Assembly: GCA_020432595.1 (NCBI GenBank)
Contig: JAGQGA010000133.1
Span: forward strand, 1 to 10,427
DNA length: 10,427 bases
Direction: 5' to 3'
DNA from: Anaerolineales bacterium
Lineage (GTDB): Bacteria; Chloroflexota; Anaerolineae; Promineifilales; Promineifilaceae
Within the stretch, counting starts at the first letter, position 1, and each line of letters begins with the position of its first letter. Shown here piece after piece: positions 320 through 7,859 of the stretch. The notes under the pieces were generated by a model. That model searched no databases, had not been told where the DNA came from, and saw only the letters and a list, made by a program, of their open reading frames with translations. Made by a program: the position numbers and the translations under genes.

Positions 320-1285
320 TCATGCATACACTCCCTCTAAAATGGTGCTGAGGTCTGGTTCGGGGCTGGCTTGGGCAAAGGAAACGGCCGTTTCAATCAG
401 CCCCTCTGCCTCTTTCCACAACGCCCCAACCTGCTCATCGGTCAAGCTTAACCAACTGGCAAAGCGGGGAATCGGGTCACGATCTTGCCACTCGCGCACC
501 TCCTCACGGGTACGGTACGCCTGGCGGTCACTTTTGGAATGACCGCGCCAGCGATAGGTCAGGCACTCAATCAGCGTTGGCCCCTCACCCGCCTGCGCCC
601 GCGCTTTGGCCTCTTTCACCGCCTCGTAAACGGCCGCGACATCATTGCCATCCACCGTCACCCCCGGAATGCCATAAGCGCACCCCCGCTGGCTAATCCG
701 CTCGATGTTGAAGGCTCGCTCCACCGACATTGACATCGCATACTGGTTGTTTTCGCACAAATAAATAATGGGCAACTTCCAAATGCTTGCCATGTTGAGC
801 GATTCATGAAACGCGCCTTCATTGGTCGCGCCATCGCCAAAGACCACCATCACTACCTGGTCGGTTTGGCGAAACTGAATGCTCAACCCCACCCCCACGG
901 CAATGGGAATGCCCCCGGCGACAATGCCGTTGGCCCCCAAATTATTGGCCTCTACGTCGGCAATGTGCATCGAGCCGCCGCGCCCGCGACAGTAACCCGT
1001 TTCTTTGCCCATAAATTCAGCCATCATGCGGTCGGGCGTGCTGCCCCAGGCTAGGCAGTGGCCGTGGCCGCGATGGGTGTTGAGCAGGTAATCGTTACGG
1101 GTGAGGGCGGCGGAGGCACCAACGGCCGTTCCTTCCTGCCCAATAGACAAGTGCATCGTCCCATGCACCAGCCCCAACGAATACAAATCCTGCGCCTTCT
1201 CTTCAAACCGCCGAATCGTCATCATCTGCCGCAGCAACGTGCGGCCGCGCTCCCCGCCAATTTCTGCTACACTTGTTTGCACCAT
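320..1285 (-). CDS. TPP-dependent pyruvate/acetoin-type dehydrogenase E1 component, alpha subunit
   Basis: This is the 321-residue alpha subunit of a heterotetrameric 2-oxo acid or acetoin dehydrogenase E1, the cytoplasmic enzyme that transfers an acyl group through TPP to a lipoyl E2. Visible family marks are MHLSIGQEG, the RGHGHCLAWG stretch with catalytic-region histidines, CRGRGGSMH, the TPP/Mg motif from GDGATNEG to ENNQYAMS, and YRWRGHSKSD corresponding to the phosphorylation-loop region. The length is normal. The RGHGH and RWRGHSKSD forms remind me more of acetoin dehydrogenase alpha (AcoA) than of classical PdhA, but this is a judgement from memory. The ATG at 1285 is preferred because the family homology begins just after it. 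A GTG at 1297 lies 4 bases after AAAGGAGG and is a serious alternative. The beta subunit follows. Upstream lie 475 bp of repeats, so this pair may have its own promoter. Confidence 0.9.
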   Translation of the reverse strand: MVQTSVAEIGGERGRTLLRQMMTIRRFEEKAQDLYSLGLVHGTMHLSIGQEGTAVGASAALTRNDYLLNTHRGHGHCLAWGSTPDRMMAEFMGKETGYCRGRGGSMHIADVEANNLGANGIVAGGIPIAVGVGLSIQFRQTDQVVMVVFGDGATNEGAFHESLNMASIWKLPIIYLCENNQYAMSMSVERAFNIERISQRGCAYGIPGVTVDGNDVAAVYEAVKEAKARAQAGEGPTLIECLTYRWRGHSKSDRQAYRTREEVREWQDRDPIPRFASWLSLTDEQVGALWKEAEGLIETAVSFAQASPEPDLSTILEGVYA

Positions 1286-1318
1286 CGTGTCTCCCACGCC
1301 GCCTCCTTTTAAAGAATA

Positions 1319-1482
1319 GGACGCTGATTTGCCTGATTTGCCTGATTGGTTGTTTACAAAATAACTGGGCAAAAAAGCAAAAAGCTTCCAATGTCATTCC
1401 GAGGTCCTCGCTCCGAAGACTTCGCTCGGAATGACATTTATCCGATTAATTTGTTAACCCACTATCAGGCAAATCAGCGTCC
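1319..1482. mobile_element. MITE-like unit with 19-bp perfect terminal inverted repeats and a nested hairpin
   Basis: Positions 1319-1337 and 1464-1482 are perfect 19-bp inverted repeats beginning GGACGCTGATTTGCC. Inside them, 1390-1403 and 1425-1438 form a second perfect 14-bp inverted repeat (AATGTCATTCCGAG), whose loop holds a third small stem, CGAAG/CTTCG. The left terminal repeat runs on into tandem copies of TGATTTGCC. No target-site duplication is visible beside the ends, and no transposase is encoded. A non-autonomous element is one reading. Another is a REP- or STRR-type palindromic repeat, or one palindromic repeat inserted into another. Confidence 0.5.
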
Positions 1483-1503
1483 CGTTTTCTTGGCAATGCT
1501 GTC

Positions 1504-1622
1504 CTAGCGGTTTGTCGGAAAAGCCAGAATAGCATTGCAGATGACACAGATTTTTTCTTGTTTTATCCGCGAAAATCCGCTTCGATCCGCGTTGCCATTT
1601 TCTTTTTCCGACAGGCTACTAG
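1504..1622. repeat. Imperfect inverted-repeat unit enclosing ATCCGC-type tandem repeats
   Basis: Positions 1504-1522 and 1604-1622 pair with 14 or 15 matches in 19, including a perfect 10-bp core (TGTCGGAAAA/TTTTCCGACA) and CTAG at both outer ends. The interior around 1566-1592 carries three degenerate 10-base repeats starting ATCCGC. It lies directly beside the preceding inverted-repeat unit and appears to belong to the same class of intergenic repeats. Confidence 0.5.
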
Positions 1623-1760
1623 TTAGCAAACAGACAAACAGATAGAACGCAAGCAACTATGGCTTATCATTCAACATAATCTTGCTACAACGTTCTGCCT
1701 GCTGTTTGCTGCACCAACACGCCACACCAAATGTGCAGCCCTGTTCAAATGGCTCCCCGC

Positions 1761-6094: not shown

Positions 6095-6158
6095 TAGACG
6101 ATTGGGGATTGCAGAATCCCAAACATTTTGCGTGCTTAACTGGGCGGGTCGTGCCTAA

Positions 6159-6584
6159 CTAAGCAGGTTGCAAACTCATTTTTGCCTGCTGGCGCTGACG
6201 GGCTGCCTGTAAATCTTTGGCAGCGTTGACAAAGGCAGGACGTAATTTGGCGGGGACGGGGAGTGTAGCTTCATTCGCCAAAATATCGTTAAGGGACATA
6301 CCGACAAGTTCGGGGGCTGGTTGCAGGCGGGCGAAGACAGTCCAACCAGCAAATTTTTGGGCGTGGACAACGCGGTCTTTTTCATCAATGACTAGGATAC
6401 CGTAGGCGCGTCCTTTGAGACGATCACCGTTGAGACCAACGGCCGTTAATCCATCCTTCCTCAGCAGTGCCAAATCCTTGTAAAAGACCTTCATCTGACG
6501 GTAAGCCATCCAAAATTGCGCCAGCCACATCACCACCATTGCGCCCAAGACGTACCCACCATAGTCAACCATAAAATCAACCAT
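6159..6584 (-). CDS. gutM: GutM-family glucitol operon protein
   Basis: This 141-residue protein belongs to the GutM (SrlM) family, known in E. coli as an activator of the glucitol operon. It has one N-terminal hydrophobic segment (residues about 8-26), then a cytoplasmic-type domain with VGLNGDRLKGRAYGILVIDEK and AQKFAGWTVFARLQPAPELVGMSLNDI. These match the E. coli order GRSSGRFKPR..VAIALDDQQRI and KGLTVFARPQKIPAITGM. It is about 20 residues longer than the E. coli protein, with a Gln/Ala-rich C-terminus. GGGAGG precedes the ATG at 6584. Its neighbours are the HPr gene (29 bp upstream) and srlA (160 bp downstream). The membrane segment suggests it may sense or assist the permease and not bind DNA directly, but this is inference. 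Confidence 0.88.
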   Translation of the reverse strand: MVDFMVDYGGYVLGAMVVMWLAQFWMAYRQMKVFYKDLALLRKDGLTAVGLNGDRLKGRAYGILVIDEKDRVVHAQKFAGWTVFARLQPAPELVGMSLNDILANEATLPVPAKLRPAFVNAAKDLQAARQRQQAKMSLQPA

Positions 6585-6613
6585 ATCCTACCTCCCGGTT
6601 TAGCAACCCGTAA

Positions 6614-6892
6614 TCAGTGACCTTCGGCAAAATCAGATTCAACCAGTGCTTGCAGGGCTGTGAGAGCTTCCTCAGCTTGAGGGCCTTCCGCCTCAATTTT
6701 AATTTCATGCCCTCTCAGCACTGCCAGCAGCAGCAGGTGTAGTGGACTTGCCCCATTAACCGGCCCTTTGCCCCGCGTCAAACTTGTCACCTGTATTTTG
6801 GCATCAAATTGCTTGGCCGTTTTGACAAACTGCGCCAACGGACGTGCGTGCAGCCCAGCTTCATGTTGAACAGTCAAAATTACCTCTGCCAT
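6614..6892 (-). CDS. ptsH: HPr-family phosphocarrier protein
   Basis: This 92-residue protein is an HPr homologue that carries phosphate from Enzyme I to the IIA subunit. The active-site motif HEAGLHARPLAQFVKTA places His15 at the canonical position. The region corresponding to the regulatory serine reads GASPLHLLLLAVLRG, with Ser49 at the Ser46 position but followed by Pro, so phosphorylation by HPr kinase is doubtful. Its place between the regulator and gutM suggests a dedicated HPr for this transporter; no Enzyme I gene is in the window, so that must come from elsewhere. AAGGAG lies 6 bases before the ATG. The regulator gene ends 10 bp upstream. Confidence 0.92.
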   Translation of the reverse strand: MAEVILTVQHEAGLHARPLAQFVKTAKQFDAKIQVTSLTRGKGPVNGASPLHLLLLAVLRGHEIKIEAEGPQAEEALTALQALVESDFAEGH

Positions 6893-6902
6893 GTCTCACT
6901 CC

Positions 6903-7859
6903 TTAACTTATGCTCCCTGCCAAAACAGCCTCGGCTGCATTGCTATCTGTCACTAATACATCTAAGAAACCACCTCGGAGAGCACCCAAAATGGCGGCTG
7001 CCTTCACCTTGCCCCCAGCTATGCCCACAATCGTACAGTTGCTAGCAGACAAAGCGCGTAGGCTAATTCCCACAATTTGTTGATTAATCGCAATGTTGAG
7101 AATACGGCCGTTTTCGTCAAAATGCGTGCCACAAATATCACCCACTGCTCCAGCCCGCTTGATCTCATCCATTTCAACAGCACTGAAGTAACCTGCCCGC
7201 ACCAGAGCCGACCGTTCCGGCTCCACACTCCCAACGCCAACAAAAGCATAATTTGCCTGCGTCGCCAAATCAAGCGTTTCGTGCACATGTCTTTCAGTCA
7301 TTAGCGAGGCTCTTGTCCGTGCATCAGCCACGAAATGGGGTGCATTGAGCGTAAAATATTGGGCACCAAGAGCCTGGGCAAAGGTTCGCGCCAAATCGGG
7401 ACCATCAATGTGGGGATCGCCATGCCCAATCCCACCAATCATCTGCACAACTTTGACAAGGGGCAACCGCCGCTGATGCAGCGCATTACCCACCTCAAAC
7501 AAGGCAGTCCCCCACCCCAACCCTAAAATGCTGAGGTCGGTAATTTCATCCAGATAGGCTGCTCCCGCTTTCCCTAAAAGCCGCAACATGCGGGTATAGT
7601 CAAGGTTACTACGCTGCACGACATAAGCCGAGCGTAGACCATATCTGTTGCATAATTCTGTTTCCAGGTTAACTGAGCGCTTGATGGGATGGTTGATACG
7701 AATATCAACAAGCCCGTGCTGATGGGCTTCCGTTAAGAGACGAGAAATAGCGGAACGAGAATAACCAAATTTGCGAGCGATTTCAGCCTGGCTGCGACGA
7801 CCCAAATAATACAGATCAGCAACCGTTGCTAAGAACTCTAGCCGCTCGTAGTTCGTCAT
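6903..7859 (-). CDS. SorC-family sugar-binding transcriptional regulator
   Basis: This 318-residue cytoplasmic protein has an N-terminal helix-turn-helix (residues about 20-50, RRSQAEIARKFGYSRSAISRLL). A large SorC/CggR-type sugar-phosphate-binding domain follows, with LGLGWGTAL, VQMIGGIG, VGVGSVEPE, GDICGTHFDENG and a final GIAGGKVKAAAILGALRGG. Members of this family are usually homotetrameric repressors or activators relieved by a phosphorylated sugar. The frame is open to a GTG at 7928, but the ATG at 7859 is chosen because GAAGAGGGACG precedes it and the HTH domain starts normally there. As first gene of the minus-strand operon, it probably controls its own transcription through the two palindromes at 7978-8011. 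The ligand is likely the phosphorylated product of the PTS. Confidence 0.9.
   Translation of the reverse strand: MTNYERLEFLATVADLYYLGRRSQAEIARKFGYSRSAISRLLTEAHQHGLVDIRINHPIKRSVNLETELCNRYGLRSAYVVQRSNLDYTRMLRLLGKAGAAYLDEITDLSILGLGWGTALFEVGNALHQRRLPLVKVVQMIGGIGHGDPHIDGPDLARTFAQALGAQYFTLNAPHFVADARTRASLMTERHVHETLDLATQANYAFVGVGSVEPERSALVRAGYFSAVEMDEIKRAGAVGDICGTHFDENGRILNIAINQQIVGISLRALSASNCTIVGIAGGKVKAAAILGALRGGFLDVLVTDSNAAEAVLAGSIS

Follow-up and report, generated by a model that had tools for sequence, protein, structure and literature searches.

A glucitol-type phosphotransferase operon with a DXR-II-like oxidoreductase and a distinct E1 component: a probable route for the degradation of 2-C-methylerythritol

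Introduction

Why would a bacterium keep a complete glucitol-family phosphotransferase system (PTS) without the sorbitol-6-phosphate dehydrogenase that usually accompanies it, and place beside it a relative of an isoprenoid-biosynthetic enzyme and a two-subunit E1 component? The question is raised by a 10,427-nucleotide stretch of an Anaerolineales genome (Chloroflexota; GenBank assembly GCA_020432595.1, contig JAGQGA010000133.1; hereafter the window). Here the PTS genes are followed by a gene for a DXR-II-like oxidoreductase (DRL; 2442..3767, minus strand; DRL_cat, PF21135, 211 bits) and by genes for a thiamine diphosphate-dependent E1, with an alpha subunit (320..1285, minus strand; E1_dh, PF00676, 301 bits) and a beta subunit of which the N-terminal part lies within the window (1..198, minus strand; Transket_pyr, PF02779, 38 bits). 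We propose, with a probability of about 0.7, that this operon serves the catabolism of 2-C-methyl-D-erythritol (ME) or of a closely similar 2-methyltetritol. A first-pass annotation of the window had suggested such a pathway for a branched polyol, and the analysis reported here supports that interpretation.

In the proposed pathway the glucitol-family PTS would take up ME with concomitant phosphorylation (ME + phosphoenolpyruvate -> 2-C-methylerythritol 4-phosphate, MEP), and DRL would run the DXR reaction in reverse (MEP + NAD+ -> 1-deoxyxylulose 5-phosphate, DXP, + NADH). An E1-E2-E3 complex would then convert DXP + CoA + NAD+ to acetyl-CoA + glyceraldehyde 3-phosphate + NADH. DXP, an acyloin that ends in a methyl ketone, would be cleaved by E1 alpha/beta in the way that acetoin dehydrogenase cleaves acetoin, the acetyl group passing via lipoyl-E2 to CoA and E3 forming NADH; being irreversible, this step would draw DRL against its usual direction. 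In a variant of the scheme an ATP-binding cassette (ABC) transporter and a kinase would supply MEP (ME + ATP -> MEP). The substrate, the oxidative direction and the cleavage of DXP by E1 are what we infer. No paper on ME catabolism was found among the top matches in the open-licence PMC literature, which does not prove its absence from print.

Results

The operon-type DRL very probably converts DXP and MEP into each other

The window DRL combines DRL_cat (PF21135), NAD_binding_3 (PF03447) and SAF (PF08666) domains, the composition expected of DXR-II, and is 42.5% identical to Brucella DXR-II (match to 3UPY with E 1.8e-106). PMC3847144 ties seven sites to DXR-II function (Brucella numbers 121, 191, 193, 229, 250, 320 and 351), and at all of them the window protein carries the Brucella residue: Gly123, Lys193, Lys195, Thr231, His252, Arg322 and Val353 correspond to Gly121, Lys191, Lys193, Thr229, His250, Arg320 and Val351. 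The same sites set DXR-II apart from DLO1 and DLO2; the window protein has the DXR-II set, and five DLO-like proteins deviate at several positions. We collected relatives by a DRL-alignment scan of one genome per GTDB species and kept the best 80 of 402 loci, in which Lys191, Lys193, Thr229 (in part by construction, see Discussion) and Arg320 are present in 80/80 and His250 in 60/80. In a tree, the window protein clusters with DXR-II: Brucella DXR-II falls among the operon DRLs, and four of the five DLO-like proteins separate with a support of 0.992, the fifth, from Deinococcus taeanensis (L181), not being with them. Two DLO-type homologues lie in rfbF/rfbC-like nucleotide-sugar clusters, namely that of D. 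taeanensis (annotated) and one of a Chloroflexus aurantiacus-like genome (L261, by sequence look), where they perhaps serve cell-surface sugar synthesis.

This latter genome, which we take to be that of C. aurantiacus J-10-fl, encodes three DRL-family proteins. Only one of them has the Lys/Lys/Thr/Arg set; it shares 62% identity with the window DRL and resembles Brucella DXR-II more closely than the other two do. Its gene lies in a run of SorC regulator, E1 alpha, E1 beta, E2, GutM, IIC, split EIIBC, IIA, DRL, HPr and EI; E3 and the aldolase-like gene of the window (see below) are not in this run, and IspG has no match in the genome. DXR-II activity has been reported by complementation for C. 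aurantiacus J-10-fl, presumed to use mevalonate only, and confirmed for Finegoldia magna, in which enzymes of neither isoprenoid pathway were detected (PMC3847144). Taken together, the reported activity, the operon and the lack of an IspG match make it very probable that an operon-type enzyme interconverts DXP and MEP in a cell where MEP has no biosynthetic use, presuming that the gene cloned in that work is the operon DRL.

In Rossmann-fold enzymes an acidic residue where the second beta strand ends generally points to NAD rather than NADP. Brucella DXR-II has Ala-Arg-Arg at this cofactor site and the window DRL has Asp52, which predicts an NAD-type enzyme. Among 119 DRLs the site is Asp in 111, Glu in five, Asn in two and a gap in one, and it is acidic in all 65 E1-linked DRLs.

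E1 genes go with the DRL gene and not with the glucitol PTS as such

Linkage was counted by tblastn with the window proteins; greedy calling of open reading frames (ORFs) had picked antisense ORFs in GC-rich loci. Among the best 80 of 402 loci, the closest DRL relatives of the window are loci in Chloroflexota metagenome-assembled genomes (MAGs), at no more than 70% identity, and at least three of the four glucitol-PTS parts lie near DRL in 59/80. Of these 59 loci, 35 have flanks of roughly 10 kb to either side, and 28 of the 35 contain both E1 alpha and E1 beta; among full-flank DRL loci without a glucitol PTS they were found in 0/4. The chance level is about 0.03 per 21-kb window (268 E1-family matches in about 190.7 Mb), estimated from 40 host genomes that were hand-picked from the 80 loci, are mostly E1-linked and also served for the isoprenoid searches below. 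Since many of the 35 loci are related, a binomial p for 28/35 overstates independence. The distance between DRL and E1 ranges from 159 bp to 8.6 kb, with E1 upstream or downstream and on either strand (39 loci with E1 alpha and beta), which argues for selection and against one frozen arrangement.

As a control we used a sample chosen without reference to DRL, namely an EIIBC search of 299 Bacillota genomes that gave 31 match rows, of which 28 were taken (three weak or fragmentary ones were omitted) as stretches of up to 20 kb, some ended by contig ends. E1 alpha and beta accompany the glucitol PTS in 16/20 loci with DRL and in 0/8 loci without it (Fisher p 1.6e-4; two of the eight, L151 and L167, are short at 7.6 kb and 12.3 kb). 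Omitting two loci from genomes already in the first set (L157 and L176) leaves 14/18 versus 0/8 (p 3.2e-4), and counting as positive one DRL-free locus with remote E1 matches of 27-30% identity (L170) gives p 1.9e-3. A simple explanation, that E1 merely travels with the glucitol PTS, is rejected by the lack of a close E1 in all eight PTS loci without DRL.

The side-by-side placement of DRL, the glucitol PTS and E1 alpha/beta, which the first-pass annotation had proposed to look for, is conserved across Chloroflexota, Bacillota, Spirochaetes, Acidimicrobiia and Alphaproteobacteria. That annotation had named E1 genes unlinked to the operon in relatives as an outcome that would tell against it; the relatives show the linkage, leaving a minority of DRL loci without a nearby E1. 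It had also pointed to lipoyl E2 and E3 genes, whose place would be beyond the left edge of the window, and E2, often with E3, does lie beside E1 in relatives: across the 67 loci with DRL, E1 alpha and E1 beta gathered overall (a few genomes counted twice, some loci clipped by contig ends), E2 is present in 61 and E3 in 24. In two loci a second PTS follows E2, one of galactitol type by Pfam (L031, 15553-17856) and one annotated just as PTS IIC/IIA/IIB (L147, 11788-13986), perhaps serving another stereoisomer.

The association bears on the possibility that DRL is a linear-polyol-phosphate dehydrogenase that replaces sorbitol-6-phosphate dehydrogenase, the E1 complex taking a later product. The PTS does belong to the glucitol family, and one locus of the Bacillota sample (L159) carries, by sequence look, an SDR-type dehydrogenase and a transaldolase-like gene. 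However, sorbitol catabolism requires no E1, and E1 goes with DRL and not with the glucitol PTS as such (16/20 versus 0/8), so that we regard this reading as quite improbable.

The linked E1 forms a clade with a characteristic basic loop

We built an E1 alpha tree from 66 DRL-linked sequences (that of the window and those of 65 loci, none being dropped) together with 58 further E1 alphas of the host genomes, the latter made up of the 18 best-scoring and 40 hand-chosen ones from about 230. All 66 DRL-linked proteins group together with one of the 58 others (split support 0.948). This outsider (L205) comes from the Brevibacillus genome of L076, a DRL locus without E1, and is encoded on the same contig at a distance of 139 kb. 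Thirteen positions mark the group, among them Thr43, His71, Asn115, Lys251 and Ser252. Lys251 occurs in 94% of the group and in 0/57 others, and its loop reads GHS[KR]SD in 66/66 DRL-linked E1 alphas, the form GHSKS being found in one of the 58 others, again L205; the equivalent loop of human pyruvate dehydrogenase (PDH) is GHSMSD. Our guess is that the basic residue of this loop binds the phosphate of DXP. Annotators name the E2 'acetoin dehydrogenase' in three loci. In the making direction, E1-type chemistry on this carbon skeleton has a precedent, since purified PDH makes 1-deoxyxylulose from pyruvate and glyceraldehyde and aceE mutants make DXP (PMC3424233).

In most hosts searched a role of DRL in isoprenoid synthesis is unlikely

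Brucella DXR-II is a biosynthetic enzyme (PMC3847144), and three of the 40 host genomes have IspG without DXR-I. DRL might accordingly be read as a biosynthetic DXR making MEP for isoprenoids, with the PTS bringing in extra ME and E1 being a pyruvate dehydrogenase adjacent by chance. However, IspG has no match in 25/40 host genomes, namely 19/19 Chloroflexota outside Ktedonobacteria-type genomes, both Spirochaetes and four Bacillota, nor in the C. aurantiacus-like genome. Note that single IspG absences in MAGs are weak, as genome completeness is not given; the uniform pattern across hosts is not. Three IspG-less Bacillota isolates (Virgibacillus, Oceanobacillus and Ornithinibacillus) carry a clear HMG-CoA synthase; this enzyme is above cut-off in 10/40 hosts and gives strong matches in five that lack IspG, three Bacillota and two Spirochaetes. 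DXR-I is present in 12 of the 15 IspG-bearing hosts, in which DRL is redundant because DXR-I and IspG are both there. Furthermore, E1 is linked to DRL repeatedly and in several arrangements, and the E1s so linked form a clade distinct from the other sampled host E1s. A biosynthetic role of DRL in most hosts searched is thus rejected, and the reading that assumes it, contradicted for IspG-less hosts barring another MEP-using route there, is in our view very improbable.

The Brucella enzyme itself sits within an alphaproteobacterial clade of 11 (support 1.0), in which 9/10 of the other members are E1-linked and 10/10 are acidic at the cofactor site. Being nested there, the biosynthetic enzyme, represented by one Brucella sequence, looks derived. 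We lean towards the view that most of the 'DXR-II' family is catabolic and that the Brucella enzyme was recruited secondarily, through a change at the cofactor site, from a rhizobial-type catabolic ancestor that used NAD.

Other uptake modules and DRL loci without E1

We examined 19 of 111 plasmid records with a DRL homologue, taking 6 to 10 kb per side. E1 lies near DRL in 10/19 (Priestia, two Rhizobium, S. meliloti Rm41, S. fredii NGR234, Agrobacterium, Aminobacter, Nitratireductor, Pseudoroseomonas and Terrarubrum); the nine without E1 are two Listeria, Ligilactobacillus, one Phyllobacterium and five distant DLO-like proteins. PMC3847144 also lists S. fredii NGR234 under DXR-II. The Rhizobium, S. 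meliloti and Agrobacterium records show no PTS; a sugar ABC transporter and a sugar kinase take its place there, and the genes are ordered DRL-E1a-E1b-E2-E3 with gaps of no more than about 130 bases; two of these rhizobial-type records add lipoyl synthase. A 9.3-kb Hakubella contig (L059) has SorC-DRL-E1a-E1b-E2-E3 and no PTS. The replacement of the PTS by an ABC transporter and kinase indicates that the usual core is phosphorylating uptake, DRL, E1 and E2.

Glucitol PTS and DRL occur without E1 in Ligilactobacillus salivarius (L179) and Listeria (L180). In the former fsa and transketolase genes come next, perhaps an alternative way of cleaving the product.

At L073 (6421-17092) a DRL lies beside an apiosidase (PF13204), an FGGY kinase, a fucose-isomerase-like protein and a split transketolase-like pair, possibly an apiose locus employing a DRL. 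This DRL, 46% identical, and that of Phyllobacterium, near an ABC sugar transporter and an aldose epimerase and without E1, favour a reading in which the operon degrades another branched polyol or sugar (apiitol or apiose-derived). DRL would then interconvert a branched polyol phosphate and an ordinary pentulose phosphate, and E1 would act on a hydroxymethyl ketone or another product. However, a pentulose phosphate requires no E1-E2-E3, whereas a lipoyl complex suits an acetyl-donor acyloin, as in the established chemistry of acetoin dehydrogenase. The key positions of DRL, moreover, match a DXP-acting enzyme, and DXR-II activity is reported from a species that seems to carry the operon. We consider this reading unlikely.

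Gene content of the window

From regulator to E1 beta all genes of the window operon are co-oriented on the minus strand in a single run. The first is a SorC/DeoR-type sugar-binding transcriptional regulator (6903..7859; NCBIfam TransRegDeoRBac 237.5 bits against a cut-off of 420, LsrR 148 bits), homologues of which lie close to DRL in many relatives. It is followed by HPr (6614..6892; PF00381, 87 bits), a GutM-like protein (6159..6584; PF06923, 68 bits) and the SrlA-like EIIC (5447..5998, the ORF being open from 6043 with an ATG at 5998; PF03608, EII-GUT, 249 bits; NCBIfam SrlA 243 bits). EIIBC comes as two separate genes, a membrane half (4886..5428; PF07663, 150 bits; aligning to SrlE 158-330) and a B-domain half (4127..4669, open from 4762 with an ATG at 4669; PF03612, 168 bits; aligning to SrlE 1-151). 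The SrlB-like IIA (PTSIIA_gutA, 3764..4126; PF03829, 120 bits) completes a PTS that, with Gut-family IIA and IIB and two membrane parts, is of glucitol/sorbitol type. In good agreement with the first-pass annotation, a Pfam and NCBIfam scan of 11 window proteins found a complete PTS of this family and no sorbitol-6-phosphate dehydrogenase (0/11), the enzyme that would mark an srl/gut sorbitol catabolic operon; the long ORFs from 8113 onward were judged by eye. The translational coupling of DRL to IIA that it had claimed is correct because the two genes overlap by 4 bp (3764-3767).

Its account of gene order and families holds for the families and for the E1 genes, which lie behind inverted repeats, and falls short in omitting one gene. 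Between DRL and E1 alpha this aldolase-like gene (1761..2384, minus strand; PF00596, 54 bits) comes first, followed by a gap of some 475 bp that holds inverted repeats (1319..1622; 19-nt perfect arms at 1319-1337/1464-1482, others at 1390-1438 and 1504-1622). E1 alpha and beta are both present, as in acetoin and pyruvate dehydrogenases, beta being incomplete at the window edge. HxH supplies the zinc ligands of class II (fuculose-type) aldolases; the window protein, a class II aldolase/adducin-like protein, lacks it, as do all 27 aligned rows (the window and 26 relatives), some of which keep a single His. A PDB search with the protein gave weak matches only. As a cleaver of DXP the gene product is rejected, the zinc motif being present in 0/27 rows, and since the motif is missing throughout we left the gene out of the model.

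Several repeats and frame features were observed alongside. At 239-297, between E1 alpha and E1 beta, GCAAAGGC units form a perfect inverted repeat of 23 nt. The palindrome AACGGCCGTT has 12 copies at up to one mismatch between 383 and 10163, genic and intergenic, versus 0.44 expected; its core also occurs in L031, an Ardenticatenaceae locus, and is rare in four further loci from Chloroflexota. It looks like a lineage-specific overrepresented palindrome. An LspA-like frame (signal peptidase II by sequence look, 8113-8592) terminates in a run of 16 T (8572-8587), after which the protein apparently continues in another frame, possibly an assembly artefact.

Discussion

Several observations weigh against the proposed degradation of ME. 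The equilibrium of the DXR reaction favours MEP, and flux towards DXP therefore needs the pull of the E1 complex. Position 250 is not His in 20/80 DRLs and is Tyr in the C. aurantiacus-like protein, and the invariance of Thr229 across the first 80 loci is in part a product of the scan, one peptide of which contained this residue. Asp at the cofactor site is shared by 4/5 DLO-like proteins, so the acidic residue is the common state of the family and not a mark of the operon, and the comparison with an NADP-type DXR-II is limited to the one Brucella sequence. E1 is missing from 7/35 full-flank loci with PTS and DRL (L022, L026, L027, L034, L045, L054 and L076; the L022 genome has E1 about 15 kb from DRL, at G010:C2). 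Nor was it seen in the stretch read for 4/20 Bacillota loci with both, or near the DRLs of two Listeria, one Ligilactobacillus and one Phyllobacterium. In L046, L050-L052 and L055 the DRL lies, by sequence look, near a mannitol-type permease instead, which weakens the case, and in L073 it is found among apiose-type genes, so that some DRLs may act in apiose metabolism. The DRL of the three hosts with IspG and no DXR-I (G026, G033 and G040, Hakubella and two Tepidanaerobacter relatives) could serve biosynthesis, perhaps in both roles. Finally, the aldolase-like gene fits nowhere in the proposed scheme.

If ME degradation is indeed the function of the operon, it would have several consequences. 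2-Methyltetrols are major atmospheric oxidation products of isoprene, and ME occurs in plants; the operon would be a bacterial sink for ME or 2-methyltetrols relevant to isoprene carbon. Cleavage of a sugar phosphate by an E1 would be a new enzyme activity, and the gene names pyruvate dehydrogenase, homoserine dehydrogenase and FlgA would be corrected. PMC3847144 raises the question of how DXR-II, being redundant, could have arisen alongside DXR-I, and describes active DXR-II in bacteria without the MEP pathway; a catabolic role would answer both the redundancy and the presence without that pathway. The words 'sorbitol' and 'catabol' are absent from the main text of that paper.

The operon resembles known systems in its parts and departs from each of them. 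With the DXR-II of Brucella abortus (3UPL/3UPY; family described in PMC3847144) the window DRL shares the domains and the seven checked positions, but its cofactor site is acidic and not Ala-Arg-Arg, and it lies in an uptake and degradation operon, most searched hosts of which lack IspG. With the acetoin dehydrogenase (AcoABCL) and pyruvate dehydrogenase systems the locus has in common a two-subunit thiamine-dependent E1, accompanied in relatives by lipoyl E2 and E3; its E1 alpha differs in belonging to a separate clade with GHS[KR]SD, Thr43 and a predicted sugar-phosphate substrate, in a tree that included no named AcoA. The enterobacterial sorbitol operon (srlAEB-gutM, srlD) has the same PTS family and GutM, whereas the window has DRL in place of the SDR dehydrogenase, a split EIIBC, its own HPr and E1 genes. 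Finally, the sorbitol PTS of Salmonella reportedly transports ME (Testa et al. 2004), the uptake step proposed here, but there it is said to feed isoprenoid synthesis and not catabolism.

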